A stretch of DNA of 20,408 nt from positions 1-20,408 of the IMG/VR virus record IMGVR_UViG_3300046559_000956; one strand, given 5' to 3'. The position numbers and the translations under genes were made by a program. Below, piece after piece: positions 1,928 through 13,687 of this stretch (positions are counted from its first letter, which is position 1; each line of letters opens with the position of its first letter). The stretch comes from a virus. Under the pieces are notes generated by a model. The model saw nothing but the letters and a program-made list of their open reading frames with translations. It was not told where the DNA came from and searched no databases.

Positions 1928-1931
1928 TGTA

Positions 1932-2188: not shown

Positions 2189-2195
2189 CACGCTG

Positions 2196-2238: not shown

Positions 2239-2268
2239 CGACGCAACACTTAACATTAGAGGTAGATG

Positions 2269-2445: not shown

Positions 2446-2462
2446 AAAAAGACACATGACAC

Positions 2463-2491: not shown

Positions 2492-2503
2492 TTAATCATG
2501 CAA

Positions 2504-2518
2504 CGTGCACATCGCACG
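2504..2518 (+). promoter_or_regulatory. 5'-leader hairpin with ACATC pentaloop (copy D)
   Basis: Perfect 5-bp stem CGTGC/GCACG closing ACATC (2509-2513), 18 nt from the -10 and 23 nt before the ATG. Confidence 0.62.
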
Positions 2519-2541
2519 GTAGCACACTAAAGGGTAGCACA

Positions 2542-3357
2542 ATGAGAATTATCAACGCCGAATATTTGAGCAAGAATCCCGTTCAAGCCACGCAAGCGCA
2601 CGCCGCCGTGAGCGACAAGTATCAATTCGTCAATAGCGAGCAAATCCTGGCCATCTTTGCCCAAGCCGGATGGACGCCCGTGTCGCAAACCGCCATCGTG
2701 CCCCGCAAGGAATCGCGTCAAGGTTTTCAAAAACACATGGTGCGCTTGGAGCACCCCGATTATCAAACCATGCCCGGCCTTGAAGGCGTGCACACCACGC
2801 GCCCCCAATTGTTAATGATTAACAGCCACGACCGCGCGTCAAGCTTGCGGCTAATGTGGGGCATGTTTCGCATGGCGTGCCTCAACGGCATCGTGACGGG
2901 CGAATCCGTCAATGAAGTCAAACTGACCCACAACACGAAGATGGCCGAACGTCTGCCCGCCGCCTTGCAACAGCTACTCAACGCCTTCCCGACCATGATG
3001 CAACAAGCCGAGCAGCTGGCCCGCACACAGCTAACAGACGCCGCCGTGCAGCAATTAATTAAGACCGTGTACGATGCCCGCCTTGAGGGAAGCGAGAAGA
3101 TTGTGAGTGTAGATTATCGGCTGCCCTACGTTCGGCGCAGCGCAGACACCGGCAACGACGCCTTCACCATCTTCAACCGCGTGCAAGAAGCAGCCATACG
3201 CGGCGGCATTGGCTACACGTACGAGCGCCAGGTAAAGGACCGTTATGGCGACACCTACGCGCGCCTTGCCTACGCTAGGAGCCGCGAGATTAAGGCCATC
3301 GACCAAAGTGTGAAAATCAATCGGCTCGCCTACAACGCCGCCTTGGCCCTAGTGTAA
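2542..3357 (+). CDS. DUF932 family phage protein
   Basis: A 271-residue protein that resembles DUF932, a family of unknown biochemical role found in phages and plasmids. Family hallmarks are the start (AVSDKYQFVNSEQIL, residues 22-36), the KHMVRLEHP segment (64-72), the core LLMINSHDRASSLRLM (90-105) and FRMACLNGIV (109-118). It is likely soluble, mixed alpha/beta with a helical C-terminus, and of typical length for the shorter members. The ATG follows AAAGGGTAGCACA. Promoter copy D and its hairpin precede it, and copy E begins 8 nt after the stop. The family often sits beside replication and recombination genes, consistent with the clamp gene nearby, but no activity can be assigned. Confidence 0.85.
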   Translation: MRIINAEYLSKNPVQATQAHAAVSDKYQFVNSEQILAIFAQAGWTPVSQTAIVPRKESRQGFQKHMVRLEHPDYQTMPGLEGVHTTRPQLLMINSHDRASSLRLMWGMFRMACLNGIVTGESVNEVKLTHNTKMAERLPAALQQLLNAFPTMMQQAEQLARTQLTDAAVQQLIKTVYDARLEGSEKIVSVDYRLPYVRRSADTGNDAFTIFNRVQEAAIRGGIGYTYERQVKDRYGDTYARLAYARSREIKAIDQSVKINRLAYNAALALV

Positions 3358-3364
3358 AAAGTAA

Positions 3365-3393
3365 GCAACGCCTGCGCCCGCCATGCCGATAAC
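3365..3393 (+). promoter_or_regulatory. Promoter copy E with -10 inside a 13-bp palindrome
   Basis: GCAACGC, 16 bp, GATAAC. GCGCCCGCCATGC (3374-3386) pairs over 13 bp (one G-T) with 3398-3410, leaving the 11-nt loop CGATAACTCAA that presents the -10. The 3' arm is also the 5' arm of the following ACGGT hairpin, so the two folds exclude each other. Confidence 0.75.
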
Positions 3394-3404
3394 TCAAGCA
3401 TGGT

Positions 3405-3421
3405 GGGCGCACGGTGCGCCC
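3405..3421 (+). promoter_or_regulatory. 5'-leader hairpin with ACGGT pentaloop (copy E)
   Basis: Perfect 6-bp stem GGGCGC/GCGCCC closing ACGGT (3411-3415). This loop deviates at position 4 from the ACRTY pattern of the other seven. Confidence 0.62.
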
Positions 3422-3443
3422 CCTGAAAATAGAGGGTAACACA

Positions 3444-3983
3444 ATGGGCACACGCAACTTGACCATGATTAAGCTAAACGGGGAATTGAAACTTGCCAAC
3501 TACGGCCAATGGGATGGATACCCCACAGGCCAAGGCGAGACCGTCGCCGCCTTCATCCAAGCCTACCTGTTAGATGACACGCTGCGCGCCGAGTTTGCCG
3601 CCAAGGTGGCCAAACTCAAATTTGCCACCGACGCCGAGTTAGAGGAATTGGAAGCCAGGGAGGTGGCCATGCTGGAAGCCCAACGCAATGGCGAGCACGT
3701 GGCCACATACATGCTAGATAAGTTTGTTGCCTTTGACCGCGACACTGGCGCGACCATCCTTCAAAAAATCTGGAACGGGCTGCACTGCCAGATTGTGAAG
3801 GATGATAGCGAGTTTTTGAAGGACACGTTGTTTTGCGAATGGGCCTACTGTGTGGACCTGGACACCTGCAAGGTGGACGTTTACATGAGCACGGTTGAGC
3901 CCGTCGCCTCTATCCCGTTCACCGATTTTACCGTTATCTCTATGCGCGCCCTTGAAGCGATGTTGCGGGTACGGGAAGGATAA
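3444..3983 (+). CDS. MGTRNLT-type phage protein of unknown function
   Basis: A 179-residue protein opening with MGTRNLTMIKLNGELK, followed by ANYGQWDGYPTGQGETVAAFI (residues 19-39, split in two strands). I recognise this start (GTRNL, then YGQWDGYP.GQG) from phage and bacterial hypothetical proteins without known function. The middle is an acidic helix (ATDAELEELEAREVAMLEAQ) and the C-terminal half is mixed, with four cysteines around residues 113-153. An in-frame GTG at 3414 lies within the leader hairpin and is rejected; the ATG at 3444 follows GAGGGTAACACA. Cytoplasmic. Own promoter copy E; copy F starts 5 nt after the stop. Confidence 0.82.
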   Translation: MGTRNLTMIKLNGELKLANYGQWDGYPTGQGETVAAFIQAYLLDDTLRAEFAAKVAKLKFATDAELEELEAREVAMLEAQRNGEHVATYMLDKFVAFDRDTGATILQKIWNGLHCQIVKDDSEFLKDTLFCEWAYCVDLDTCKVDVYMSTVEPVASIPFTDFTVISMRALEAMLRVREG

Positions 3984-3987
3984 GTAA

Positions 3988-4016
3988 GCAACACCTACGC
4001 GCCGCACGCCGATAAC
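3988..4016 (+). promoter_or_regulatory. Promoter copy F with -10 inside an 11-bp palindrome
   Basis: GCAACAC, 16 bp, GATAAC. GCGCCGCACGC (3999-4009) pairs with GTGTGCGGCGC (4021-4031), one G-T, with loop CGATAACTAAG. The stem sequence differs completely from copy E although the loop is nearly the same. Confidence 0.75.
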
Positions 4017-4024
4017 TAAGGTGT

Positions 4025-4043
4025 GCGGCGCACGTTGCGCTGC
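4025..4043 (+). promoter_or_regulatory. 5'-leader hairpin with ACGTT pentaloop (copy F)
   Basis: 7-bp stem GCGGCGC/GCGCTGC (one wobble) closing ACGTT (4032-4036), 16 nt from the -10. Confidence 0.68.
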
Positions 4044-4066
4044 CGACACAATAGAAGGTAGCACCC

Positions 4067-4651
4067 ATGAAACTCCCAAAACACGTTATCAACCTGTACC
4101 GCTTCACAAGCACCGATGAAATACGCGTCGCCCTGCAACACGTGTGCATTGAATACACCGCCGGCAATGCCATCGCCACCGCCGTGGCCACCGACGGCCA
4201 CCGCCTTGTCTACCTGGAATTTGACATGGGTGGCTTTCGGCCTACCGACGGCAAACTGTACCTGCACCGCGACGTTCTCAAAAACATCAAGTTAGGCAAA
4301 GACGGCGTGGCCAACCTTAACGACGGATACATCACGGCCACAGCCAAGGGTGCCACCACGCGCTATGATGCGAGCTATGACTTGCAAGGCTACAGCTACC
4401 CCACCTGGCGACGGTGCCTCGACGGCGCGCCAGACGATGATGCCACGCCGTGCAGCATCATCGGCGTCAATGCCCGCTACCTGGCCGACTTTGCCGACTA
4501 TCTCAAGGCGTGTGGTGTGGACTATCGTGTCGGCTTTGAGATGCCCGCCGATGATATATCTGTCATGGCCATGACCGCGCACGGTGACATCAACGGCACC
4601 GACGACAAGACCCAAGCCATCCGTTATCTGCTAATGCCCATGCGGCTGTAA
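4067..4651 (+). CDS. Shortened DNA polymerase III beta sliding clamp homologue
   Basis: A 194-residue protein, about half a bacterial DnaN (near 366 aa). ATDGHRLVYLEF (residues 41-52) matches the domain II signature ATDGHRLA; YSYPTWRRCL (109-118) matches the FPDYRRVL end of domain II; GVNARYLADFADYL (133-146) matches the FNVSYVLDVLNAL helix of domain III; and the C-terminus YLLMPMRL equals the YVVMPMRL ending of E. coli DnaN. Domain I and the first half of domain III are missing. The retained residues (T42, G44, H45, R46, L47 and M190-L194) are those that line the clamp's partner-binding cleft. It could be a reduced phage clamp forming a different ring, or a decoy for clamp-binding proteins. 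The ATG follows GAAGGTAGCACCC. Homology confident from remembered DnaN sequence; function inferred. Confidence 0.82.
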   Translation: MKLPKHVINLYRFTSTDEIRVALQHVCIEYTAGNAIATAVATDGHRLVYLEFDMGGFRPTDGKLYLHRDVLKNIKLGKDGVANLNDGYITATAKGATTRYDASYDLQGYSYPTWRRCLDGAPDDDATPCSIIGVNARYLADFADYLKACGVDYRVGFEMPADDISVMAMTAHGDINGTDDKTQAIRYLLMPMRL

Positions 4652-4654
4652 GGC

Positions 4655-4682
4655 GCAACACGATGCACGCCGCGCCGATAAT
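4655..4682 (+). promoter_or_regulatory. Promoter copy G with -10 inside a 13-bp palindrome
   Basis: GCAACAC, 15 bp, GATAAT, starting 4 nt after the clamp stop codon. TGCACGCCGCGCC (4664-4676) pairs with 4687-4699 over 13 bp (one G-T), loop GATAATCTAG. Confidence 0.75.
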
Positions 4683-4691
4683 CTAGGGCGT

Positions 4692-4710
4692 GGCGTGCAC
4701 GTTGCGCGCC
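4692..4710 (+). promoter_or_regulatory. 5'-leader hairpin with ACGTT pentaloop (copy G)
   Basis: 7-bp stem GGCGTGC/GCGCGCC (one wobble) closing ACGTT (4699-4703). Confidence 0.68.
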
Positions 4711-4728
4711 ACCGGCAAAGGAGCACCC

Positions 4729-4998
4729 ATGAAAACGATTGGCATTGGCTATTGCGGGCCCGAATACCCTGGCGATTGTGCTGACTGTGGCGAGCCGATT
4801 ATGAACGACGAATATTGGGGGCCCATCTGCCCGGACTGTAGCGCACCGCCTGAGCTGCGCGCCGAGCTGTCAGCGAGGTGCGCCGGATGTGGCGTGTCGG
4901 GCGATTACAGCGCCAATGAGCATGGCGAGTGTCACCGCTGCGCCGCCCTGGCGCCGACCGACAATGACTTTTATTTGCTGCGCGACAAAATAATCTAA
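4729..4998 (+). CDS. Double zinc-ribbon protein (89 aa)
   Basis: An 89-residue protein with two four-cysteine clusters. The first is CADCGEP with CPDCSAP (residues 17-37), the second CAGCGVS with CHRC (48-69); each pair spacing CxxC...CxxC is classical for zinc ribbons. The C-terminus (NDFYLLRDKII) may be a short helix or partner motif. The ATG at 4729 follows AAAGGAGCACCC, the only leader here with a strong GGAG core. An in-frame upstream GTG at 4690 lies inside the promoter palindrome and is rejected. Zinc ribbons of this kind usually bind nucleic acid or RNA polymerase; the partner here is unknown. Confidence 0.8.
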   Translation: MKTIGIGYCGPEYPGDCADCGEPIMNDEYWGPICPDCSAPPELRAELSARCAGCGVSGDYSANEHGECHRCAALAPTDNDFYLLRDKII

Positions 4999-5030
4999 CC
5001 ACGCCGCTACCATGCTGTGTATGTGATGAT

Positions 5031-5047
5031 GTGGCCACGTCGGCCAC
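5031..5047 (+). promoter_or_regulatory. Leader hairpin with ACGTC loop but no upstream promoter (copy H)
   Basis: Perfect 6-bp stem GTGGCC/GGCCAC closing ACGTC (5037-5041), 22 nt before the ATG at 5070. The 32 nt between the previous stop and this hairpin lack both GCAACAC and GATAA. The hairpin is therefore kept without the promoter, which points to a role in RNA. Confidence 0.65.
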
Positions 5048-5069
5048 CACAACACGGTAGGGTAGCACA

Positions 5070-5189
5070 ATGAACGGACACTTAATTAAGAAGGTATATC
5101 TCGAAAGCTTGAAGACGGTATCGCCCACACTTGAGCGCGACCTTGAAATCGCCCGGATTCTACTCAAGACCATGAACACCAAAAAGTAA
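5070..5189 (+). CDS. Micro-protein (39 aa)
   Basis: A 39-residue basic peptide, predicted as one long amphipathic helix (LIKKVYLESLKT, then TLERDLEIARILLKTM). The start is supported by GGTAGGGTAGCACA directly upstream, identical to the leaders at 2542 and 5270, and by the conserved leader hairpin. Without its own promoter it is probably expressed by read-through from the zinc-ribbon gene 71 nt upstream. Too short for family assignment. Helical phage micro-proteins of this size often bind and inhibit a host enzyme, but this one shows no recognisable target motif. Confidence 0.65.
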   Translation: MNGHLIKKVYLESLKTVSPTLERDLEIARILLKTMNTKK

Positions 5190-5197
5190 GCAGCCAC

Positions 5198-5226
5198 GCA
5201 ACACGTGCGCCCATGCCGCCGATAAC
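5198..5226 (+). promoter_or_regulatory. Promoter copy I with -10 inside a 13-bp palindrome
   Basis: GCAACAC, 16 bp, GATAAC. GTGCG plus CCCATGCC (5205-5217) pair with GGCATGGG plus CGCAC (5230-5243) with a single bulged C at 5238, loop GCCGATAACTAT. Confidence 0.75.
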
Positions 5227-5235
5227 TATGGCATG

Positions 5236-5252
5236 GGCCGCACGTTGTGGCC
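5236..5252 (+). promoter_or_regulatory. 5'-leader hairpin with ACGTT pentaloop (copy I)
   Basis: 6-bp stem GGCCGC/GTGGCC closing ACGTT (5242-5246). Both arms changed relative to copies A, F and G while pairing is kept, a compensatory pattern. Confidence 0.68.
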
Positions 5253-5269
5253 TAAGATAGGGTAGCACA

Positions 5270-5470
5270 ATGAAACTATACACCTTCACCGACGCTGACA
5301 ATGCATACATCTTCGGGACCGGGCCCGAGACTGTGGCAGCCAATACCGACACCGACGCCCCGGCTGACTACGCGGGCCCATGCCCCGAGTGTGCTGAAGA
5401 GATGACCCCGGACACCTGCTACCACGGCATGTGCCTGAGCTGCGCCCTGGCCATGGTGGGCGAGTACTAG
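5270..5470 (+). CDS. Small zinc-ribbon-like protein (66 aa)
   Basis: A 66-residue acidic protein. The N-terminal half (MKLYTFTDADNAYIFGTG) looks like two short strands. The C-terminal half carries CPECAEEMTPDTC (38-50) and CLSC (55-58), with His52 between, a likely single zinc site. The ATG follows ATAGGGTAGCACA. It resembles the 89-aa zinc-ribbon protein upstream only in cysteine pattern, so the cluster may hold a small family of zinc micro-proteins. Own promoter copy I and leader hairpin. Function unknown. Confidence 0.75.
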   Translation: MKLYTFTDADNAYIFGTGPETVAANTDTDAPADYAGPCPECAEEMTPDTCYHGMCLSCALAMVGEY

Positions 5471-5496
5471 GCCCGCTAAAAAAGTACGGTAGGCAC

Positions 5497-5525
5497 GCAA
5501 CACAACGGGCGTGCCTGCCGATACC
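5497..5525 (+). promoter_or_regulatory. Promoter copy J
   Basis: GCAACAC, 16 bp, GATACC. Here the inverted repeat is shifted upstream: GGTAGGCACGC (5488-5498) pairs with GCGTGCCTGCC (5509-5519), one wobble, enclosing the -35 side instead of the -10. An A-tract (5478-5483) lies upstream. Confidence 0.7.
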
Positions 5526-5534
5526 TTCTAGTGT

Positions 5535-5553
5535 GTGGCGCACATCGCGCCGC
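5535..5553 (+). promoter_or_regulatory. 5'-leader hairpin with ACATC pentaloop (copy J)
   Basis: 7-bp stem GTGGCGC/GCGCCGC (one wobble) closing ACATC (5542-5546), 17 nt from the -10. Confidence 0.65.
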
Positions 5554-5569
5554 CAGCGAGGGTAGCACA

Positions 5570-5740
5570 ATGAAGATGACCACCAGCCAACGCATCAGCC
5601 AAATCCAAGCCCAGATTGACCGCGCCATTGACCTGCGCCACCGCGCCGAGTTTGAGGGCATGTACGAGGCCGCCAGCCAGCTGGCCGACTTTGAGACCCG
5701 GGCCCGGGCTGAGGTGCAGCGACTCCTAAAGACGCTGTGA
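5570..5740 (+). CDS. Small coiled-coil protein (56 aa)
   Basis: A 56-residue protein that appears to be an antiparallel helical pair: ISQIQAQIDRAIDLRHRAE (residues 9-27) and a second helix from 30 to 55 ending in EVQRLLKTL, rich in Ala, Gln, Arg and Glu with heptad-like spacing. The ATG follows CGAGGGTAGCACA, the sequence exactly complementary to the terminator loop at 2211-2220. It is the last gene of the uniformly spaced cluster before the 270-nt gap. No family recognised; dimerisation is likely from the helix pattern. Confidence 0.72.
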   Translation: MKMTTSQRISQIQAQIDRAIDLRHRAEFEGMYEAASQLADFETRARAEVQRLLKTL

Positions 5741-5754
5741 CCTGACACGGTAAA

Positions 5755-5773
5755 GGGCCCAGTCAGAGGGCCC
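5755..5773 (+). terminator. GGGCCC hairpin after the 56-aa gene, possible terminator
   Basis: Two copies of GGGCCC (5755-5760, 5768-5773) flank a 7-nt spacer and can pair as a 6-bp all-GC stem, 14 nt after the stop codon. No U-tract follows, so intrinsic termination is uncertain; it may only stabilise the mRNA 3' end. Confidence 0.35.
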
Positions 5774-5779
5774 ACACCG

Positions 5780-5818
5780 CACGTGTGCCAGCGCCAGGTG
5801 CCACGTGTGCCTGCGCCA
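5780..5818 (+). repeat. Tandem direct repeats (iteron-like), spaced 22 bp
   Basis: CACGTGTGCCAGCGCCA (5780-5796) and CACGTGTGCCTGCGCCA (5802-5818) are identical at 16 of 17 positions and repeat every 22 bp, two helical turns. Degenerate GCCAGCGCC-type units continue to about 5860. A third copy lies at 6779-6795. Such phased repeats suit a protein-binding array such as a replication origin or operator. Confidence 0.55.
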
Positions 5819-5903
5819 ATGCCAGGGCCATGCCAAGTTACTTGCCAGCGCCTGCCACGCCGTGTGAGGGTAGCAGACGCGGCTGTGGGGGGAATCCTGA
5901 CCG

Positions 5904-5962
5904 CACTAGGGAGCGCCCAAGGCCGGTGTTTTGCACCAGACCCTAGTGGTAGGGCGCTTTTC
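5904..5962 (+). promoter_or_regulatory. Attenuator-like switch upstream of the 126-aa gene
   Basis: Two interleaved inverted repeats. CACTAGGG (5904-5911) pairs with CCCTAGTG (5941-5948). AGCGCCC (5912-5918) pairs with GGGCGCT (5952-5958), which is followed by TTTT as in an intrinsic terminator. A small GGTG/CACC hairpin sits between. The order a-b-a'-b' makes the two stems mutually exclusive or, less likely, a pseudoknot, because no nucleotide separates a from b. The start codon lies 47 nt beyond the T-run. Confidence 0.5.
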
Positions 5963-6009
5963 AAGGTATTGACGAATTCCACGATTCCACCTTCTCAAGG
6001 GCTGCCCAC

Positions 6010-6390
6010 ATGGCGCGCGATAAGACACCCAAGGCCGAGATTACCGTCGCACCCAGTGTGGCCCATGGCGTGCAAATCATGCGTCGCCACGTGGCCACCG
6101 CTGCCCGGGCCGAGTTCAGCGGCAAGGTGCAACGGCCACGCAACTACGCGGCTCTATTGAGTGAGGTGTGGGGCATGGCTGAAGACTTGATTCTATCCGT
6201 CAAACTGTCCGACGAGCCACTGCCTCGCAAGGTGGGCATGCTGCGCGACCTAACCAAGCTACTGCCTGCGCTCGACAAGGCCGAAAGCCGCCACCGCGTG
6301 CACATTGGCAAGCGCGTGGTGCAAGACATGACGGACCATGACCTGGAGCGGGCTGTCAGTGAACTGTTGAAGCGCAAAAAAGACACGTGA
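6010..6390 (+). CDS. Hypothetical helical protein (126 aa)
   Basis: A 126-residue basic, almost entirely helical protein with a basic N-terminus (MARDKTPKAEI) and a Lys/Arg-rich C-terminus (ELLKRKKDT). The middle (LPRKVGMLRDLTKLLPALDKAESRHRVH) is an amphipathic helix with charged faces. The size and character would allow a small terminase subunit or another DNA-binding protein, but no helix-turn-helix can be pointed to and the gene is 3.5 kb from the large subunit. Its leader is different from the others: no ACRTY hairpin, the ribosome-binding region is CTCAAGGG, and a putative attenuator precedes it, so its control probably differs from its neighbours. Confidence 0.72.
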   Translation: MARDKTPKAEITVAPSVAHGVQIMRRHVATAARAEFSGKVQRPRNYAALLSEVWGMAEDLILSVKLSDEPLPRKVGMLRDLTKLLPALDKAESRHRVHIGKRVVQDMTDHDLERAVSELLKRKKDT

Positions 6391-6394
6391 GCAC

Positions 6395-6423
6395 GCAACA
6401 CTTTGCGGGGTCGTGCCGATAAT
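6395..6423 (+). promoter_or_regulatory. Promoter copy K, orphan (no gene directly downstream)
   Basis: GCAACAC, 16 bp, GATAAT, with an AAAAAAGACACGTGAGCAC flank like copies A and D. A hairpin GGTGC/GCGCC (6435-6439 with 6448-6452) sits at the usual leader position, but its 8-nt loop is AGCTGTCG instead of ACRTY. No AGGGTAGCACA and no convincing ORF follow. Confidence 0.7.
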
Positions 6424-6429
6424 TATAGG

Positions 6430-6560
6430 TGTGGGGTGCAGCTGTCGGCGCCCGGATGAAGCAAAGGACGGGGGGGCCCTACTGGGGGTACCTACCAAGG
6501 GGGGAGTATTGGACGGCGCCGGCGCGGGCGCGCCCGATTCCCCCTGAGAGTTTATGTGTG
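6430..6560 (+). ncRNA. Candidate structured non-coding RNA from promoter K
   Basis: Downstream of copy K the sequence is G-rich with runs of 7, 5 and 6 G (about 6470-6504) that could form a quadruplex. It then folds into a strong hairpin: GGGGGAGT (6500-6507) pairs with ATTCCCCC (6537-6544) around a GC-only core that includes the palindrome CGGGCGCGCCCG (6525-6536). The 37-codon frame at 6456-6569 has no ribosome-binding site and an odd composition, so a structured RNA is the better reading. Untested. Confidence 0.35.
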
Positions 6561-6565
6561 GCGAG

Positions 6566-6688
6566 TTAGTAACGACCCTGTGATTTCATAATAGAAAATA
6601 ACAAAACAATGCCTGTGACCAGCAAAGGCAACGACACAACGAGAACGACCCACGTCAACATGAGATAGTAATACAGTGCCCGCGCCAA
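6566..6688 (-). CDS. Possible micro membrane protein (31-40 aa)
   Basis: The frame from ATG 6661 (31 aa) or TTG 6688 (40 aa) encodes one clear transmembrane helix (WVVLVVSLPLLVTGIVLLF) followed by a short basic tail (IMKSQGRY). No good ribosome-binding site is visible for either start, so expression is doubtful. The helix length and positive-inside tail are nevertheless typical of a single-span phage protein. It follows the small frame at 6695-6817 with a 6-nt gap, which fits a two-gene unit antisense to the gene-poor region. Confidence 0.35.
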   Translation of the reverse strand: MARALYYYLMLTWVVLVVSLPLLVTGIVLLFSIMKSQGRY

Positions 6689-6694
6689 ATCCGT

Positions 6695-6817
6695 CTACAA
6701 GCGCCGCGTCACAAAGCCCTCAAAAAGCGCCCAGCAAACGCAACAATCGACCGCCTCCCTGACGCGCCGCCCCTCGACCACGTGTGCCAACGCCAGTAGA
6801 ACAGTCAGCAGACCCAA
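6695..6817 (-). CDS. Possible small Cys-rich hydrophobic protein (40 aa)
   Basis: An open frame of 40 codons from TTG 6817. It starts with a signal-like hydrophobic stretch (LLTVLLALAHVVEG), continues with a basic turn (RRVRE) and ends with VDCCVCWALFEGFV. There is no convincing ribosome-binding site, and an overlapping frame from ATG 6867 stops after 20 codons nearby. The stop lies 6 nt before the next possible small membrane protein. I list it because 6391-6865 has no other coding candidate; it may be chance. Confidence 0.25.
   Translation of the reverse strand: MGLLTVLLALAHVVEGRRVREAVDCCVCWALFEGFVTRRL
6779..6795 (+). repeat. Third copy of the CACGTGTGCC repeat
   Basis: CACGTGTGCCAACGCCA differs at only one or two positions from the pair at 5780-5818, about 1 kb away. 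The gene-poor segments on both sides of the 126-aa gene therefore share a motif. Confidence 0.5.
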
Positions 6818-6865
6818 GGTGCCGCCGTTGCGACGCCGCCTTTACTCTTGAGCAGGAGTTTGACC

Positions 6866-7099
6866 ATGACCCGAGACAAAGACCGTGACGACCAACTCAA
6901 CACCCTCGTCAACGCCATGCTAAGCATCCGCGACGTGCTCGCTGACGCCTACAATTTTCAGGTGCGCCTCATCACCGACGACATCGAGCTGTTGCGCCAC
7001 ACCCTCGAGGACGAGGAGTTCGATAAGGAGTTCGAGGGCCTAGGCGAAAACCCCCTCGAGGACGCGCCCACGGAGCCGGCGCCCAAAAAGCACGACTAG
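6866..7099 (+). CDS. Small acidic protein (77 aa)
   Basis: A 77-residue acidic protein. The N-terminal two thirds are helical (DDQLNTLVNAMLSIRDVLADAY and ITDDIELLRHTLEDEEF); the C-terminus is disordered, Glu/Pro-rich and ends in PAPKKHD. The ATG at 6866 follows AGGAG with 7-nt spacing, a canonical ribosome-binding site unlike the AGGGTAG type of the left cluster, which suggests that a different expression class begins here. An in-frame TTG at 6848 would extend it by 6 residues but lacks support. No family recognised. Confidence 0.72.
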   Translation: MTRDKDRDDQLNTLVNAMLSIRDVLADAYNFQVRLITDDIELLRHTLEDEEFDKEFEGLGENPLEDAPTEPAPKKHD

Positions 7100-7179
7100 G
7101 CACGTGTTCTGGCTCAAAGTGCGGCCTCTGGCCCAAAACGCCTTGACGCATCGCATGGGCGCCTGCTAGGGCCAAACCC

Positions 7180-7383
7180 ATGAAAATCACCGTAGACCTC
7201 GAGCAAGACCCCAAAATGCCCATCGCCATCGCTTCACACGGCCAGGGCGAAGGGCGGGCCTCTGCCAAGATTTGCCTCAAAACCCTCAAAGTGCTCAAGA
7301 GCCGCAACTTTTCCGGCTCCCAGCTCATGGCCATCGAGCAAATTGTGACACCTCTTGCCAAGGCCAAGCCCCTCAAGCTATGA
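7180..7383 (+). CDS. Hypothetical small protein (67 aa)
   Basis: A 67-residue basic protein starting MKITVDLEQDPKMPIAIAS, with a beta-like N-terminus and a helical basic C-terminal half (KICLKTLKVLKSRNFSG, PLAKAKPLKL). The upstream TAGGG is weak and 8 nt from the ATG, so the start is moderately supported. It lies 80 nt after the acidic 77-aa protein; the opposite charges would allow an interaction, which is speculation. No family recognised. Confidence 0.6.
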   Translation: MKITVDLEQDPKMPIAIASHGQGEGRASAKICLKTLKVLKSRNFSGSQLMAIEQIVTPLAKAKPLKL

Positions 7384-7505
7384 GGCTTCTTGAGGGTGCG
7401 GGCTGTTTTCGGTGCCTTCAGGGCCCCCAGTCCGTGGGGCGCCGGATCTAGGCCAGCCTGCACCCTCACCCCTCAACAATACCGTGCAAGCGGTTGCGTC
7501 GCCGC

Positions 7506-7531
7506 TATACTCTCCCCATGTGCAAGGGGAG
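7506..7531 (+). promoter_or_regulatory. TATACT box and RBS-sequestering hairpin
   Basis: TATACT (7506-7511) is the best housekeeping-like -10 here, but no clear -35 lies 17 bp upstream. CTCCCC (7512-7517) pairs perfectly with GGGGAG (7526-7531), burying the GGGGAGG ribosome-binding site of the next gene. Transcripts starting about 7 nt after the box would lack the 5' arm and leave the site free; read-through RNA would hide it. Confidence 0.5.
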
Positions 7532-7536
7532 GTTCT

Positions 7537-7614
7537 ATGGTCGGATGGGTTATCGTTGTGTTGTGGGTTGCCTTGCTAATCCTCGGTGCGCGGGGTGGCT
7601 CTTGGCGTACCTGA
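7537..7614 (+). CDS. Single-span micro membrane protein (25 aa)
   Basis: Twenty-five residues that are almost all transmembrane helix (MVGWVIVVLWVALLILGA) with a short basic C-terminus (RGGSWRT). The start is well supported by GGGGAGG four nt upstream, the strongest ribosome-binding site in the region, itself inside a hairpin. Its 3' end overlaps the converging minus-strand gene by 39 nt. Small single-span proteins under tight translational control are often holins, antiholins or membrane regulators in phages. This is a hypothesis; size excludes homology evidence. Confidence 0.6.
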   Translation: MVGWVIVVLWVALLILGARGGSWRT

Positions 7615-7896
7615 GCGTGGCCCTGGTGACCTTTCGTCCTGAGTACGCCCAGAGGCGCCAGTCGATGGCCCAGCTGGTGCGCCTAGCAAGGCCGCCACCA
7701 CCGCTTGTTCAAATTTGCCCAGTGCCCGGCCCAGGCGCATGATTTCTTGCTCCACGGCCAACCGCTCGCCGGGCGCCGCCGTGACCCGGTGCCGATGCAG
7801 CATGTCGGCGTGATGCTTCAACGAGGCGCACACGGCCACCGCCTCGTCGCCATTGAGCGCCAGCTGTAGCCGCAAAGTCCCTTTGGGCATCTTCAC
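7576..7896 (-). CDS. Hypothetical protein (106 aa), last of minus cassette
   Basis: A 106-residue protein starting at GTG 7896 (or ATG 7890). GGGGGTAG, containing the upstream gene's stop, lies 3 nt before the GTG and supports that start. Residues 1-75 are helical (AVAVCASLKHHADMLH, LAVEQEIMRLGRALGKF) and may form a coiled coil. The C-terminus is disordered (Gly/Ser/Pro/Arg-rich, ending in PRATPRTED). It follows two tiny membrane proteins in the same direction, the order expected for a lysis-like cassette, though no spanin or endolysin motif is visible. No family recognised. Confidence 0.65.
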   Translation of the reverse strand: MKMPKGTLRLQLALNGDEAVAVCASLKHHADMLHRHRVTAAPGERLAVEQEIMRLGRALGKFEQAVVAALLGAPAGPSTGASGRTQDERSPGPRSGTPRATPRTED

Positions 7897-7899
7897 GGC

Positions 7900-7974
7900 C
7901 TACCCCCTGTCGAGCAAAAAGACGGTGAAGCAAATGACGCCCACCGAACAGAAGAAAGCTGTGGGCCAATCCAT
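7900..7974 (-). CDS. Micro membrane protein (24 aa), coupled
   Basis: Twenty-four residues forming one hydrophobic segment (TAFFCSVGVICFTVFLL) with ends MDWP and DRG. The ATG overlaps the TGA of the upstream membrane protein (TGATG at 7972-7976), the usual arrangement for translational coupling, and its stop lies in the GGGGGTAG ribosome-binding site of the next gene. Position between two coupled genes is the main argument that it is real. Function unknown; it may pair with the 47-aa membrane protein, as small holin-antiholin sets do. Confidence 0.5.
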   Translation of the reverse strand: MDWPTAFFCSVGVICFTVFLLDRG

Positions 7975-8117
7975 CAGTTGCCCATAAGCTTTCTGAGCAT
8001 GGCGCCGGCGGCCGCGCCCACATTGGGGGCAAGCCAGGCCAAAAGCTGCAGGGTCAAGACGCCCGCCACCACAAGACACACACCCCGAGCCATCAAAACG
8101 GCCACACGTTCACTCAT
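7974..8117 (-). CDS. Small membrane protein (47 aa), holin-like candidate
   Basis: A 47-residue protein with a short polar N-terminus (MSERVAVLMAR), one transmembrane helix (GVCLVVAGVLTLQLLAWLA, residues 12-30), an Ala/Gly-rich linker and a basic C-terminus (LRKLMGN). The ATG at 8117 is preceded by TAGGAGGGG at 4 nt, a strong ribosome-binding site; a longer frame upstream runs inside the 173-aa gene and is rejected. Size and topology fit a class III-like holin or a membrane anchor, but no sequence family is recognised. Confidence 0.65.
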   Translation of the reverse strand: MSERVAVLMARGVCLVVAGVLTLQLLAWLAPNVGAAAGAMLRKLMGN

Positions 8118-8127
8118 CACACCCCTC

Positions 8128-8649
8128 CTACTTACGCTTGCGCTCGAGCGCCAAAAGACGGTCTTCCACCCGAGCAATGAAGTCAAACACCTTGGCGAGC
8201 CGCTCGCCCAGGCGCTCTTTGACGGCCGCAAGTTCGACTGCCGACGCCACACCCTGGGCCAAGGGCGCCTCCTGGCTCTTCTGAGCGCCGAGCTCCTCCA
8301 CCTTTTGCATCAGCGTGATGACGTGGCCCTCGAGCGCCGACAGGCGCTTTGTGAGGTGGTCTGGCGGTTGCGGCGCCGCTTTGAGCTCTGGGGGCCCGGC
8401 CGACGCCACCAGGGGCGCGCCTTCCTGCTCGGGTAAAAGGTCGCGGAGCGCCTCAAAGGGGATTCTGTGGCCGACCTGGGGCGCGTCCGGGCTATGGCGT
8501 ACAAGGCGGCCGAGCTCGTCCAAAAGAAACTTGCCCGTCTGCCTGTCCCAGCCCGGGTTGTAGTGCTTGCCCCGGGCAAAAGCCTCATGGGCAAACCTGA
8601 GCCCCATCAGCGCGTGCGCCCACTCCTTGGCTCCGAATTTCAACCTCAT
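8128..8649 (-). CDS. Hypothetical protein with C-terminal coiled coil (173 aa)
   Basis: A 173-residue protein, first gene of the leftward cassette. The N-terminal 65 residues (MRLKFGAKEWAHALMGL, HYNPGWDRQTGKFLL) form a small globular domain with many aromatics. A Pro-rich linker follows (about 70-95). Two heptad stretches, LSALEGHVITLMQKVEEL and LGERLAKVFDFIARVEDRLLAL, make a coiled coil to the basic end ERKRK. The ATG at 8649 has GGGGGG 5 nt upstream; ATG 8706 would add 19 residues with weaker support. It stands divergent to the acetyltransferase gene. Coiled-coil ends suit a virion or scaffold-type oligomer, but the role is unknown. Confidence 0.68.
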   Translation of the reverse strand: MRLKFGAKEWAHALMGLRFAHEAFARGKHYNPGWDRQTGKFLLDELGRLVRHSPDAPQVGHRIPFEALRDLLPEQEGAPLVASAGPPELKAAPQPPDHLTKRLSALEGHVITLMQKVEELGAQKSQEAPLAQGVASAVELAAVKERLGERLAKVFDFIARVEDRLLALERKRK

Positions 8650-8741
8650 GTTGGCCCCCCAAGGCCCGCCGTACCACCTGTGTCCCGCAAGAGGCAAGAC
8701 CGCCATTTGGGCCGCCGCCAGGGGCGTGGTACGGTCTGGCC

Positions 8742-9398
8742 ATGAGCGACCGACCTGCCGCGACCCGTACGGGCCTAGCCTGGCAAAACACTGTGGTGCG
8801 CGAGTACAACGCCGCCGAGGCCCGCCGCGAGCGCCGGGAATTTAACAAAAAGCTGCGCGAGCAGGCCCGGGCCCGAGGCAAGTTTGACCCGCCGACCCCC
8901 GTCTCCATCCGGCCCATCAACATCGACGACGCCTCCCACGTCATCGACAGCTGGATTCGCAGCTTTAGGCCCAGCCCCACCGTGGGCCCTGTGGAATCGG
9001 CCGTATTCCACATCGAGCAGCGGGCCCGCATCAACCGGCTCATCAGCCGAAGCAAGACGTTCATGGCCTGCGACGCCGTGGACAAAAAGCTGATTCGCGG
9101 CTGGATCGTCTTTGAGCCGCCCAAAGCGGCCGAACACGCCCCGGTGGTGCATTTTGTCTGCGTCCACCCAAGCTATCAGCTGCAGGGCATCGGCACGGCT
9201 TTGGTGAATTTGGCCAAACAAACCCACCCAGACCCGGAAGCGCCCATGTGGTGTACCCACGACACCAGCCCCATGCGCCATATCCGGCCCAAGTGGAATT
9301 TGCTCTACAATCCGTATCTACTCGAGCTCGACTACTCGCAGCCCACCAAGGCTCAAAAGGGCATCGCCCAAGGAGCAATGAACTTCTATGGCTTTTAA
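8742..9398 (+). CDS. GNAT-family N-acetyltransferase
   Basis: A 218-residue protein. After a charged helical N-terminal extension of about 50 residues (REYNAAEARRERREFNKKL) comes a GNAT domain starting VSIRPINIDDASHV. The acetyl-CoA pyrophosphate loop is visible as VCVHPSYQLQGIGTALVNLA (residues 139-158, Q/RxxGxG/A pattern). The enzyme should transfer an acetyl group from acetyl-CoA to an amine; the substrate is not evident. It opens the rightward late operon and overlaps the next gene by 11 nt. No ribosome-binding site precedes the ATG, but TACGGT ends 6 nt before it, so a leaderless transcript is possible. Acetyltransferases near terminase genes occur in several phages with unknown targets. 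Confidence 0.82.
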   Translation: MSDRPAATRTGLAWQNTVVREYNAAEARRERREFNKKLREQARARGKFDPPTPVSIRPINIDDASHVIDSWIRSFRPSPTVGPVESAVFHIEQRARINRLISRSKTFMACDAVDKKLIRGWIVFEPPKAAEHAPVVHFVCVHPSYQLQGIGTALVNLAKQTHPDPEAPMWCTHDTSPMRHIRPKWNLLYNPYLLELDYSQPTKAQKGIAQGAMNFYGF

Positions 9399-9720
9399 CG
9401 ACCCGGTAACGCTGTCTTACGTCGCTTTTCGCCAACACGTGAACCTCGGCGGCGAATCCTCGCGCACCCTGAGCCGCCAAGGGGCCCTGTGCACCCTGGA
9501 ATTGCTGCCCAATGGCATGATTCGGGTGCAAAAGCTGGGCAAAACCTTCTTTGTGGCCTCAGTCGTGATTGAAAGCTGCGAAGCGGCCGAAAATCAGCCC
9601 AAAACGGCCCCAAACACCGTTACCGGCTCATCAAAAGGCGCCAAAAGCGGCAAAAGAGCCCATTTGGAGCCCGATATGAGCCGGGCCGACGCGATTTTGG
9701 CCGAATTGGGCCACAAGTGA
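9388..9720 (+). CDS. Hypothetical protein (110 aa) upstream of terminase
   Basis: A 110-residue protein. The N-terminal 60 residues look beta-rich and may bind DNA (SRQGALCTLELLPNGMIRVQKLGKTFFVASVVIE reads like a three-stranded sheet, split here by turns). The second half is a basic, disordered linker (KTAPNTVTGSSKGAKSGKRA) followed by a short acidic helix (SRADAILAELGHK). The ATG lies inside the acetyltransferase end (GGAGCAATGAACTTCTATGG context, AGGAG 16 nt upstream). The position two genes before the large terminase and the basic tail make a small terminase or DNA-packaging accessory possible, not demonstrated. Confidence 0.68.
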   Translation: MAFNDPVTLSYVAFRQHVNLGGESSRTLSRQGALCTLELLPNGMIRVQKLGKTFFVASVVIESCEAAENQPKTAPNTVTGSSKGAKSGKRAHLEPDMSRADAILAELGHK

Positions 9721-9878
9721 AGGTTTGGGTGGTGCTAAATCACGTCCCCAACGAGACCGTTGATTGGCACGATGAGATTGCCGCAGTATGCGCCAGCCAG
9801 GCCCTAGCCGAGAAGCTGGCGGCGGCATCAGAGTATTTTACACATATCGAGGAGCACGAGGTTCGCGCAGAATTATGA
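9717..9878 (+). CDS. Small protein (53 aa) bridging into terminase
   Basis: A 53-residue acidic protein starting at GTG 9717, which overlaps the preceding TGA (GTGA), and ending at TGA 9876-9878, which overlaps the terminase ATG (ATGA). Such stop-start overlaps at both ends argue strongly for a real, translationally coupled gene. The sequence has an N-terminal strand (VKVWVVLNHV) and a helix rich in Ala and Glu (EIAAVCASQALAEKLAAASEYF). No family recognised. Confidence 0.62.
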   Translation: MKVWVVLNHVPNETVDWHDEIAAVCASQALAEKLAAASEYFTHIEEHEVRAEL

Positions 9879-11458
9879 GCCGCCGCGATCTCGATTTGGA
9901 CAATCTGAGCCCCGTCGAGCAGCGGGCGCTGTTGGGCGACTACGTGCAGCGCCAAAGGGCGCGCCAAAAGCGGTTGGCCCAGTACGAGCCCACCGCCCGG
10001 GAGCTGTCCACCGCCCAGGAGCTCAGGCGCAAGTGGTTTCCCCAGCAGGCCGCCTTTTTTGCCAGCGGCGCCAAGCGCCGGTGCGCCTTTACGACCCGCC
10101 GGGGCGGCAAGACCATCGGCACGGCCATTTGGCTGGTCAGCTCCCTTTTGGAGCACCCCACGTCCCTGCACCTGTACATGGCTCAGACGGCGGGCATCTG
10201 TAAGCTGTACATGTGGAATGAGATTAAGAGGCTCATCTTAGAGTACCAGCTGCCGTTCAAAACCAATGAGACCGACCTCACCATCATCCATGAGCGAGGT
10301 TTGGGGGCCATTGTCCTCAAAGGCGCCGACAAGGCCGACGAAATCGAGAAGCTGCGCGGCCCCAAGTGGATTAAGGCGGCCCTCGATGAGGCGGCAAGCT
10401 TTGGCGTGTTCATCGAAAACCTCATCATGGAGGTGTTGGGCGCAGCCCTCATGGACCAAGGCGGCGAGCTCATTATGACGGGCACCGCCGGCAAGAAAAA
10501 GGAAGGCATCTTTTACGAGGCGTGCCACGGCCTGCGCCGGCGTAAATCCGATGGCAAGCCCGTCTGGGAGCTGCACAAGTGGAGTTTTCAGGACAATCCC
10601 TTCATCCCCCAGTCGGCCAAAAACGAAGACACCATCATTGACGACAATGGCTTCGGAGGCCCGGACGACCCGCGCTTTTTGCGCGAGTTTAAGGGCATCT
10701 GGGCCGTCGGTGAATCCGAGCGCGTCTTTGCCGGCTTTCAAAGCGACAAGAACGTCTACAAGGAAGATTTGCCGCACGTGCACGACTGGCGCTATCTGAT
10801 GGGCGTCGATTTTGGCTGGCACGACGAATCAGCCATTAGCATCGTCGCCTACGCCCTGACCTGCCGGCGCGTGTACGTGGTGGACAGCTGGGCGGCCCCG
10901 CAGCAATTTTCCGACGATGTGGCCCGCCAGGTGAACGGCTTTCGACAAAAGTACGGCCAGAGGATTCGGATTGTGGGCGACTTGGGCGGCTACGGCAAAG
11001 GCATCGCCGTACACCTGCAGCGCGACCACGGCCTTTACATTGAGCCGGCTGCCAAGCGCGACAAGCTGGACCAAATAGCTTTCATCAATTCCGCGTTTTT
11101 GCGCCGTGACCTGCTGGTGCATGAGCAAAGGTGTAAAGAACTCATCAAGCAGCTGCAAGAGGTGGCGTGGAATGCATCGAAAACTGACATGGGCAACCAT
11201 GAGCGTGATGATCGCGCTGCAGCCATGCTGTACGCCTGGCGCGCTGCCAAAAGCGGCGGTTCTGGCTCCAAAACCCTTAGCCAAGACCCTTATCAAGACC
11301 CCGGAACAGCCTTTGCCATCAAGGAGAAGCAGGATGCCCTCAAAAAACGACCCGAAGGTGATCCCAACGAACCCGCTTGGCTCCGAGGAGACGATGACCC
11401 AACTGACGCGCCTGCTCGAATCCGGCCGAGCATGTGGCGTGAAATCGTTGGCCTATGA
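9875..11458 (+). CDS. terL: Terminase large subunit
   Basis: A 527-residue DNA-packaging motor. The ATPase domain shows Walker A in CAFTTRRGGKTIGTA (TTRRGGKT at 73-80) and Walker B in KAALDEAASFG (ALDEAA at 169-174). The RNase H-like nuclease domain shows the first acidic residue in MGVDFGWHDES (Asp312), the second in RIVGDLGGYGKG (Asp369), and a C-terminal NHERDDRAAAMLYAWRA motif. It cuts concatemeric DNA and pumps it through the portal into the prohead. An in-frame ATG at 9788 would add 29 residues that overlap the 53-aa gene; the ATG at 9875, coupled by ATGA, is preferred. Its last 125 nt overlap the next gene in another frame. Confidence 0.95.
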   Translation: MSRRDLDLDNLSPVEQRALLGDYVQRQRARQKRLAQYEPTARELSTAQELRRKWFPQQAAFFASGAKRRCAFTTRRGGKTIGTAIWLVSSLLEHPTSLHLYMAQTAGICKLYMWNEIKRLILEYQLPFKTNETDLTIIHERGLGAIVLKGADKADEIEKLRGPKWIKAALDEAASFGVFIENLIMEVLGAALMDQGGELIMTGTAGKKKEGIFYEACHGLRRRKSDGKPVWELHKWSFQDNPFIPQSAKNEDTIIDDNGFGGPDDPRFLREFKGIWAVGESERVFAGFQSDKNVYKEDLPHVHDWRYLMGVDFGWHDESAISIVAYALTCRRVYVVDSWAAPQQFSDDVARQVNGFRQKYGQRIRIVGDLGGYGKGIAVHLQRDHGLYIEPAAKRDKLDQIAFINSAFLRRDLLVHEQRCKELIKQLQEVAWNASKTDMGNHERDDRAAAMLYAWRAAKSGGSGSKTLSQDPYQDPGTAFAIKEKQDALKKRPEGDPNEPAWLRGDDDPTDAPARIRPSMWREIVGL

Positions 11459-11693
11459 GGGCCTGGTCATCGAGTGGCACGGCCCCCAAGACGCCGGCGA
11501 CGACGACCAGCCCCTGGACGACGCCGGCGACCGACCCGGTGACGATTTGGGGGAGTACGTGCTGGCCCGGACGAAAAACGACGCCCCCCAAGGCCCCTTG
11601 CTGCCGGCTGAGGTGGCCGAGGTGGTAAACTTGGCGCAAGATTACGACCGCTGGGACCGCTACGAGGCGGGCCCGGTTTCAGAGGGTGACTGA
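11334..11693 (+). CDS. Acidic protein (119 aa) starting inside terL
   Basis: A 119-residue strongly acidic protein between terminase and portal. The ATG at 11334 has AAGGAG 8 nt upstream, inside terL, giving a 125-nt overlap. In the overlap this frame has more G/C third positions than the terL frame, supporting translation from 11334. Features: VKSLAYEGLVIEWHGPQ, then an Asp-rich stretch (DAGDDDQPLDDAGDRPGDD), then a helix ending in DYDRWDRYEAGPVSEGD. The stop overlaps the portal ATG (TGATG). The place in the operon suggests a packaging or head accessory protein; no family recognised. Confidence 0.72.
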   Translation: MPSKNDPKVIPTNPLGSEETMTQLTRLLESGRACGVKSLAYEGLVIEWHGPQDAGDDDQPLDDAGDRPGDDLGEYVLARTKNDAPQGPLLPAEVAEVVNLAQDYDRWDRYEAGPVSEGD

Positions 11694-13687
11694 TGAGCAC
11701 GTATACCGTCCACGACAGGGCCCAAAAGGGCCCGGGCACCATCGATCTCTCGGGGATTAGCCGGGGCACCAAAAAAGCGGCCGAGGAGGTGGCGGCCTGG
11801 CTTTTGGCCGACGACCCCGCCCAAGACCTGGTCAGCCACGCCCAAATGCTCATCACCAAGCAGGAGGGTCGGCTGCAGCGCAACATCCGCTACCTGTCCC
11901 TGTATGCCAACCGCGACTTTATGACCGATTTCGCCGTGGGCGTGCACCGGGGCAAGCCCTTGCCGCGCATGAGCGACAATCAGCTCAAAAAGCACTGCGA
12001 CACCACCGTCGGCAAGGTCATCCAGGCCAACTCCCGGGTCACCATGCTCACCCACAACGGCGACTTTGCCCTGTGGCAGCGGGCCCGCAAGATGGAGCAG
12101 GCGCTCAAGGGCGAGTGGGCCAGGATGCGCTTTTACCGCGAGGCCCAAAAAGCCTGTGTGGACGGCTTTGTCACCGGCACCGGCATCGTCAAGCTGCAGG
12201 TGGGCGAGGACGGCGACCGCATCGAGTGCGACCGCGTCTTCCCCAACGAAATCTTCGTGGACGAAATGGACGCCGCTTTTGGCCGCCCCACCAAAATGTA
12301 CCAGGTGCGCTACGTCCAAAAAGACACCCTGGCTGCCATGTTCCCCGAAAAGTGGGATATCATCCAGGGAGCCGCCACCGCCATCGCCCCCTCCTATCCG
12401 TGGTGCCTGTATGAGCCCGGTATGATTTTGGTGGTGGAAGCCTACGCCCTGCCCGTCGGTGACCGCCCCGGCCGCCACGTCATCGCTTTGAGCTCGGGCA
12501 CCCTCCAAGACGAGGAGTGGGAGGAAGATATCTTCCCCTACGTCGTGTTCAAGCCCTCGGACGCGCCCTTTGGGTGGTATGGCCAAGGCTGGGTGGAACA
12601 CACCATGGGCGCCCAAATCTTGCTCAACAAAACGCTCAATATCATGGAACAGGGGGCCAGGCTCGGCATCGCTCCCTTCTGGGTGGTCCAGGAGGCGGCG
12701 GGTCTCAACTTTCGGCACCTCGACAACATTCCGGGCCACATCGTGGAGACCAATGGCCCGGAACCCAAGTGGGTTACCAATGCGCCATTTCACCAAGCTG
12801 CCCCCGTCTACTGCCAAATGCTCCGCCAAATCATTGCCGATTTTTGGGGCAATAATTCGATGGATACAGGCGGCGATGTGCCCATCAACCGCATTGATTC
12901 CAAAAAAGCGCTTCGGGAGTACCAGGACTTGGGGGCCTCTCGGATTACCTCTGTGCTCGAGCGGTGGACCCAAGATTTCTTTCTCGACGCAGCCGAGCGA
13001 ACTTTCACGCTTGCGAAACGCATTGCAAAAGAAAAAGGCGCCTACCCCGTCCTCGTCCAGGACACGTATAAGAAGGCTGTGCAGCTAGACTGGAAAGACC
13101 TGGACCTGCAAAAGGACGCCTACCTGCTGACGCCTGCGCCCGCCAACCTCCTCTCCAACACCCCGGCGGGCAAGACCGACGATATCAAAGAGCTCATGGA
13201 CGCCGGGCTCATCACCCAAAAGCAGGGCCAGCGCATGATGCAAGGCCCCGATGACATCAACGCCGTGCTCAGTGAGAGCTCGGCCACCGAAGACCACTTG
13301 GATTGGGTCATCGAGCAAATCATCGAAAAGGGCCACTACATTTCGCCCACCTCCGTCCAAGACCTCTCCCGGGGATTGGTGCGGATTTCGGACGCGAGCC
13401 TGCAGTATGAAACGCTTGGCCTTGAGCAATCAAAACTCGATATGTTTGCCCAGTGGCTCGAGGAAGCCCAAGACATCATGCAACAGATGATGGCCCAACA
13501 CAGCCCGGCGGGCGCACCGCCGGCATTACCAGGAGCACCAGCAGATGGCGCAATCGCAGGCGGAATCCCAGGCGGACCCCAAATCAACCCAGCAACCGGA
13601 CCCATCCCCGTCAACGCCGGTGGGCTCCCTGCCCTCGGAGCAGCCCCCGCAGGTCCGGGACCGGGCCTCCCAGCAGGCGGCCCATGA
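11693..13687 (+). CDS. Portal protein
   Basis: A 664-residue portal, the dodecameric ring at one capsid vertex through which DNA passes and on which terminase docks. Recognisable parts: a helical start with RLQRNIRYLSLYANRDF, a clip/wing region (FVTGTGIVKLQVGEDGDRIECDRVFPNEIFVDE), a conserved HTMGAQILLNKTLNIMEQGARL stretch split across a helix near residue 303, NSMDTGGDVPINRIDSK, and a long C-terminal helix. The last 50 residues are Pro/Gly/Ala-rich and overlap the scaffold gene for 143 nt. There the scaffold frame has the more typical codon use, so this tail is probably a by-product of overprinting. Start coupled to the preceding stop by TGATG. Confidence 0.9.
   Translation: MSTYTVHDRAQKGPGTIDLSGISRGTKKAAEEVAAWLLADDPAQDLVSHAQMLITKQEGRLQRNIRYLSLYANRDFMTDFAVGVHRGKPLPRMSDNQLKKHCDTTVGKVIQANSRVTMLTHNGDFALWQRARKMEQALKGEWARMRFYREAQKACVDGFVTGTGIVKLQVGEDGDRIECDRVFPNEIFVDEMDAAFGRPTKMYQVRYVQKDTLAAMFPEKWDIIQGAATAIAPSYPWCLYEPGMILVVEAYALPVGDRPGRHVIALSSGTLQDEEWEEDIFPYVVFKPSDAPFGWYGQGWVEHTMGAQILLNKTLNIMEQGARLGIAPFWVVQEAAGLNFRHLDNIPGHIVETNGPEPKWVTNAPFHQAAPVYCQMLRQIIADFWGNNSMDTGGDVPINRIDSKKALREYQDLGASRITSVLERWTQDFFLDAAERTFTLAKRIAKEKGAYPVLVQDTYKKAVQLDWKDLDLQKDAYLLTPAPANLLSNTPAGKTDDIKELMDAGLITQKQGQRMMQGPDDINAVLSESSATEDHLDWVIEQIIEKGHYISPTSVQDLSRGLVRISDASLQYETLGLEQSKLDMFAQWLEEAQDIMQQMMAQHSPAGAPPALPGAPADGAIAGGIPGGPQINPATGPIPVNAGGLPALGAAPAGPGPGLPAGGP

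Follow-up and report, generated by a model that had tools for sequence, protein, structure and literature searches.

As described in an excerpt of PMC3014915, long early transcripts of gene e of phage T4 form an inhibitory structure that lowers lysozyme synthesis from them 100-fold, and the late promoters of the gene are located where the 5' strand of the stem is encoded; leaders of like kind are given in the same excerpt for soc, 49 and I-TevI. Promoters of phage-encoded sigma factors take the form GTAAtg-(16)-aCTA in phage 7-11 and tAATGTAtA in phiEco32 (excerpt of PMC8948821). In cluster K mycobacteriophages, the SAS/ESAS are repeated short sequences with inverted repeats, found just upstream of the starts of many small genes (excerpt of PMC3203893).

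The locus compared here with these systems belongs to an uncultured phage, and the window, i.e. the whole stretch of DNA that was analysed (20,408 bases), is the entire virus record. Based on PHROGs matches, it carries a tailed-phage late block (terminase at 9788, portal at 11693), which is preceded by a block of small + strand genes (1643 to 6390). Genes of both strands come together in a mixed region (6400-8740), in which a 25-aa reading frame sits between a 67-aa + strand gene and a converging - strand ORF, with the following features:

7180..7383, + strand, 67-aa ORF, the final + strand gene ahead of the 25-aa locus (codon score 0.409)
7391..7468, + strand, very stable hairpin of 28 pairs, just 3' of the stop of the 67-aa ORF (-52.8 kcal/mol)
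7484..7511, + strand, box copy B, a candidate promoter of non-standard type: GTGCAA (7484-7489), a 16-nt spacer holding GTTGCGTCGCCGC (7493-7505), and TATACT (7506-7511)
7511..7532, + strand, hairpin masking the ribosome-binding site (RBS): UCUCCCC (7511-7517), loop AUGUGCAA (7518-7525), GGGGAGG (7526-7532); -12.2 kcal/mol
7526..7532, + strand, Shine-Dalgarno (SD) sequence GGGGAGG, with the ATG (7537-7539) 4 nt further on
7537..7614, + strand, 25-aa ORF MVGWVIVVLWVALLILGARGGSWRT, a putative single-span membrane peptide
7576..7896, - strand, 106-aa ORF, reaching with its closing codons into the 3' half of the 25-aa ORF

Copy B resembles T4 gene e in that the SD would be held in a stem of the long RNA, with a local promoter (a candidate here) in the DNA of the 5' arm and a local RNA lacking that arm. 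T4 gene e has late promoters of the TATAAATA type, mapped starts and a measured 100-fold effect (excerpt of PMC3014915), whereas the arrangement described here is predicted from sequence alone. The products also differ (lysozyme in T4, a 25-aa putative membrane peptide here), as does the type of the box from TATAAATA. On paper, the T4 gene e arrangement would work at copy B, which is a candidate member. As with the promoters of phages 7-11 and phiEco32 in the excerpt of PMC8948821, the box is bipartite, has a 16-nt spacing and is repeated before phage genes, and a relative of the present phage encodes a sigma factor; unlike them, it exists in two copies only, has another sequence and is known solely from the letters of the DNA. 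Repeats of the form GCAACAC...GCCGATAAC, found in the window, are comparable to the SAS/ESAS described in the excerpt of PMC3203893, with different sequences; the element at 7484-7532 does not belong to this many-copy repeat. Of the readings considered, the best is a cassette that gates the translation start as in T4 gene e, present in two copies and weaker before a 77-aa gene; it is put forward tentatively, with somewhat less than an even chance.

The hairpin over the SD of the 25-aa reading frame

The preliminary description had placed a promoter inside an RBS-masking hairpin ahead of a small membrane protein. Reading of the sequence confirmed TATACT at 7506-7511 and the 25-aa single-span ORF, as well as the CTCCCC/GGGGAG pairing, whose 5' arm is one pair longer than claimed (UCUCCCC, 7511-7517); the stem UCUCCCC/GGGGAGG thus contains 7 pairs, one of them U-G. 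In silico, the proposed geometry of a start inside the hairpin also held, with a start 6-7 nt past TATACT falling at 7517-7518, the end of the 5' arm.

By itself, the hairpin is weak evidence, barely beyond what chance gives for so G-rich an SD (3-9%). Its fold stability was unexceptional (z = -0.73 for 38 nt and -1.21 for 81 nt). When the SD was kept fixed and the 36 nt upstream were shuffled, masking of the SD had a P of 0.039, and the same test at two RNA lengths gave P = 0.09 and 0.028, while the P for unmasking by a start at 7518 was 0.09. A composite, defined after the finding was known as an SD-led ORF of at least 15 aa with a stem of at least 6 pairs over the SD and a hexamer matching TATAAT at 5 or more of 6 positions that places the start inside the hairpin, was found once in the window, compared with an average of 0.0115 in dinucleotide shuffles (at least one in 21 of 2000 shuffles).

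On the + strand of the window, a stem of at least 6 pairs covered the SD at 2 of 53 SD-led starts (6866 and 7537, both behind the box), in a count that takes overlapping starts as separate; on the - strand, such a stem was present at 5 of 61 SD-led starts, corresponding to 3 distinct sites as two pairs share one hairpin each. That this stem, confined on the + strand to these two starts, lies exactly over the SD at both box copies argues against a somewhat unlikely alternative, in which a genuine, repeated regulatory box is followed by a hairpin of no consequence: with CTC-rich letters ahead of it, a G-rich SD would pair by chance and nothing would be gated. This alternative is favoured by the masking probabilities obtained with the SD fixed (0.03-0.09), by the fold z values and by the 7 masked SD-led starts in the window, most of which are in non-coding frames.

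Under the gating reading, the SD is expected to be paired in long RNA and free in local RNA. In the modelled read-through RNA of copy B, the SD was only 1-4% unpaired at all five 3' ends, and in RNA starting at 7516, 7518 or 7519 it was 44-83% unpaired. With a start at 7512, the SD stayed 13-15% unpaired, which makes the precise start position decisive. The ATG was re-paired with downstream sequence (6% free) in the longest of the local RNAs modelled, and this weakens the prediction of a freed start. Based on these models, the T4 gene e logic appears plausible for copy B and is possibly used twice.

The loop of the hairpin also contains an ATG (7518), and TATACT-CTCCCC-ATG may be read as the promoter of a leaderless RNA whose product would be a 74-aa ORF (7518-7742) instead of the 25-aa ORF. 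For a leaderless start, six nt from hexamer to ATG is the expected spacing. Six nt do separate TATACT from the loop ATG, and a GATAAC-N7-ATG arrangement exists elsewhere in the phage (- strand, 1527-1492); the 74-aa ORF, however, scored -0.365 for codon use, close to the lower quartile for open stretches of 74 codons, gave no family match (best E 0.32) and overlaps most of the 106-aa - strand ORF, and the leaderless reading is very improbable.

The repeated box and the 77-aa gene

In a local alignment of the 60 nt ahead of ATG 7537 against the whole window, the best of 1933 stretches was the region before 6866 (score 39), the next unrelated stretch scoring 32. Among 10,000 dinucleotide shuffles, the maximum score was 33 and none reached 39 (Gumbel P about 1e-5). 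This region, 670 nt upstream of copy B, holds a second copy of the box with an SD stem:

6819..6846, + strand, box copy A: GTGCCG-N16-TTTACT, with GTTGCGACGCCGC
6844..6859, + strand, weak SD-covering stem of copy A: ACUCUU / GAGC / AGGAGU, -4.1 kcal/mol
6866..7099, + strand, 77-aa ORF behind box copy A, soluble and acidic (codon score 0.563)

The spacers of both copies contain GTTGCG[A/T]CGCCGC, the spacing from GTGCNN to TWTACT is 16 nt in both, and the distance to the ATG is nearly equal. With both strands searched, GTGC-N18-T[A/T]TACT occurred in exactly two copies in the window (7484 and 6819); an ungapped pattern recovered copy B alone, copy A being seen with the gapped alignment and the GTGC-N18-TWTACT pattern. 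TATACT alone had two occurrences in the window. A third resemblance, at 8367 (GTTGCGGCGCC), was inside a - strand ORF and without GTGC or TWTACT, and was dropped. The pairing of box and stem, seen twice, makes pure chance less likely, and the repeated box, absent from the preliminary description, raises the standing of the finding. The two SD-covering stems cannot count as separate lines of evidence, since the letters that pair, ACTCT and GGAG, are those which the copies have in common.

The promoter itself had been proposed from one hexamer, and no sigma-70 site was recognised there. A sigma-70 scan of positions 1-20000 returned 3 sites, none of them at the locus, which is fewer than the shuffle mean of 5.1. 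At 7506, a -10 hexamer matching at 5/6 positions is accompanied, at 16 nt, by a best -35 of GTGCAA (3/6), short of the TTGACA-like -35 and TATAAT-like -10, 16-18 nt apart, that define a sigma-70 promoter, and no extended -10 TG was seen by eye at TATACT. In copy A, TTTACT lacks the key -10 A. The T4 gene e logic of the preliminary description is supported in part, in its geometry, which matches in silico, and not in a promoter of the sigma-70 type. As the TTTACT of copy A is a poor sigma-70 -10, the box, if a promoter, is probably read by another factor, e.g. a phage sigma factor.

The distant relative of the phage encodes an ECF-like factor of the sigma-70 family, matched in both region 2 and region 4 (L012:5104-5658, - strand; Pfam E 5e-12 and 3e-7), and an SLT-domain transglycosylase (L012 4598-5071, + strand) adjoins it. 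For the single-subunit RNA polymerase (PF00940), four related records gave no match, and the control matched nowhere either, a result that is silent on absence.

The codon score of the 77-aa ORF (0.563) compares with 0.315-0.540 for eleven reference genes; as this is the codon use of sound genes, at least one of the genes served by the box is likely to be real. The only relative of the 77-aa gene recovered was in the near-identical contig. The stem of copy A was displaced by an alternative fold once about 10 nt of the gene were included. In RNA ending near the ATG, the SD was modelled as 15% free in read-through RNA compared to 77% in local RNA; in longer RNA, the values were 36-38% and 37-49% respectively, with no real switch predicted. 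On these models, copy A would back the layout, but hardly the lock. A box with almost no stem in longer RNA fits an incidental hairpin; against an incidental origin, alignment with copy A showed extra C's in one arm of copy B and extra G's in the opposite arm, with pairing kept.

The putative 25-aa peptide between converging genes

Among the 343 ORFs of 18-45 aa in the window, the 25-aa peptide was the most hydrophobic, and its SD was among the strongest. Its codon score (-0.233) was indistinguishable from those of random open stretches and gives no support for a gene, and the peptide had no family match in PHROGs (best E 0.18). The suggestion that it is toxic, and possibly a lysis trigger, found no support: neither the peptide (PHROGs) nor the neighbours tested matched a lysis family, the SLT-domain lysin-like gene of the distant relative (at ~34.1 kb) is about 23 kb away from the matching region (~11 kb), and copy A serves a soluble 77-aa protein.

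Other tiny hydrophobic ORFs are present nearby, all on the - strand (6569-6661, 31 aa; 7900-7974, 24 aa; 7974-8117, 47 aa), and the stop of the 47-aa ORF overlaps the start of the 24-aa ORF. In the distant relative, a good SD precedes a hydrophobic + strand ORF of 18 aa (L008:2684-2740); at such length, homology of the 25-aa and 18-aa peptides cannot be claimed. The 106-aa - strand ORF had a codon score of -0.134 as a whole and of -0.909 in its 34-codon tail, and because of the latter value the tail may be unconstrained.

The hairpin at 7391-7468 had a z of -4.24, and none of 200 shuffles was as stable. By eye, no U-run follows it on either strand, the terminator scan listed neither it nor the hairpin at 7511-7532 as terminator-like, so that an intrinsic terminator was not found at either, and a search of 6500-8800 against Rfam, this hairpin included, gave 0 matches. 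It is possibly an attenuator, a terminator or a processing site between 7383 and 7537, and may end, cut or protect upstream RNA. Read-through RNA of the 67-aa ORF would run into 7537, and the RBS lock is relevant only if RNA does so; if the hairpin ends upstream RNA, the lock would act as an additional safeguard or have nothing to do.

The same hairpin enters into an unlikely alternative, according to which the 25-aa ORF is not a gene and 7383-7576 is a gap between converging gene blocks, where the hairpins at 7391-7468 and 7511-7532 serve to terminate transcripts or to make them stable. In its favour, the + strand genes do stop at 7383, facing a - strand ORF with its end at 7576; the first of the hairpins is very stable; and in codon score the 25-aa ORF equals an average open stretch. 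Yet neither hairpin has a U-run behind it or was returned by the terminator scan, and a strong SD 4 nt before the ATG of the most hydrophobic short ORF, as well as an upstream box common to a sound gene, would be unexpected for a terminator.

Relatives, other repeats and the proposed gating

The exact 27-nt element was found in one other contig of the viral contig collection (L002). Across 14,208 bases, this contig was 99.8% identical to the window, and none of the 27 differences fell in 7392-8325. A scan of the collection with a box pattern fitting copy A only returned the near-identical contig alone. At the DNA level, positions 6800-9800 had no match in the phage collection, and the best match there of the 63 nt around the element was at chance level (E 0.5). 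Searches with terminase, capsid and two-row alignments recovered near-identical contigs and one distant contig only, and a portal alignment search of genome contigs (562 stretches) gave 0 relatives. The distant relative, with 60-67% protein identity, has other genes at the matching place, and the loci searched in it contained no box and no ORF matching the 25-aa ORF.

A 24-nt non-coding match (GAGTTAG[T/C]AAC[GA/AG]CCCTGTGATTT, 21/24 identical by eye) links positions 6563-6586 of the window to L008 1596-1619 in the distant relative; it occupies the same place in both phages, after the 126-aa gene, in DNA that is otherwise strongly different, and is possibly a packaging or regulatory site. Another near-identical contig (L003; 1757-1766 compared to 9718-9874 of the window) is without 157 nt, among them the opening 87 nt of the terminase ORF as listed. 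As the L003 terminase match starts at residue 28, terminase may actually begin further inside this ORF, or else L003 may be a variant.

The gaps of the + strand early block harbour a bipartite element, GCAAC[AG]C-N12..14-GCCGATA, with the following copies in the motif scan:

1563, 1933, 2464, 3366, 3989, 4656, 5199, 5498 and 6396, + strand, nine repeat copies
1527, - strand, looser copy CAACAC-N16-GATA, ending 7 nt ahead of an ATG (GATAAC-N7-ATG)

Across the nine + strand copies and the L002 version of one of them, GCAAC, a C and GCCGATA were invariant, and the element has the look of a -35/-10 pair read by a phage or ECF-type sigma factor. The strict form was found once each in 43 stretches elsewhere in IMG/VR, and the 42 newly fetched loci contained no second copy of the looser form. 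The box of the 25-aa locus was considered as a copy of this repeat and rejected, as its spacing and sequence differ and the motif scan did not return it; the best score of the box region against the upstream regions of the repeat genes was 22.

In four of the nine copies (3366-3420, 3989-4035, 4656-4705 and 5199-5245), GATAAC is in the loop of a hairpin of 10-14 pairs, the arms of which differ between copies yet remain complementary (P 0.002-0.008 against shuffled arms). The other five had no such stem by the arm-shuffle test, the 1933 copy (1933-1990) folding well in another register. Local RNA begun after GATAAC would have its first base in the 3' arm and would lose the 5' arm, which is the geometry proposed for the 25-aa locus. 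Of the 27 differences between the window and L002, 7 are within 22 nt (6402-6423), 6 of these in the spacer of the repeat at 6396, which looks replaced, perhaps via recombination between copies.

In the proposed gating, read-through RNA from the genes at 6866-7383 is modelled to fold UCUCCCC onto GGGGAGG, which would block translation. The box GTGC-N18-T[A/T]TACT, as a phage-specific promoter, would start RNA at about 7517-7519; lacking the UCUCCCC arm, this local RNA is modelled to leave GGGGAGG free, and the 25-aa membrane peptide would be translated. A weaker version of the layout would operate at 6819-6868, ahead of the 77-aa gene, and both genes would be switched on together when the box is used and be silent in read-through RNA. 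A bolder and quite unlikely form of the proposal holds that GTGC-N18-T[A/T]TACT is a promoter class of its own whose start always lies inside an SD-masking stem. Promoter and lock would then be joined in one compact unit, some 50 nt long, by which a gene is readable only from its own promoter; two neighbouring genes would each have received a copy, and the arms would have diverged in parallel.

If true, the strategy of T4 gene e would exist in an unrelated phage, as a cassette short enough for copying from gene to gene. Tiny hydrophobic ORFs in dark phage genomes would be marked as genes kept silent until a set time, and the leader would allow such genes to be recognised where the peptide is too short for homology.
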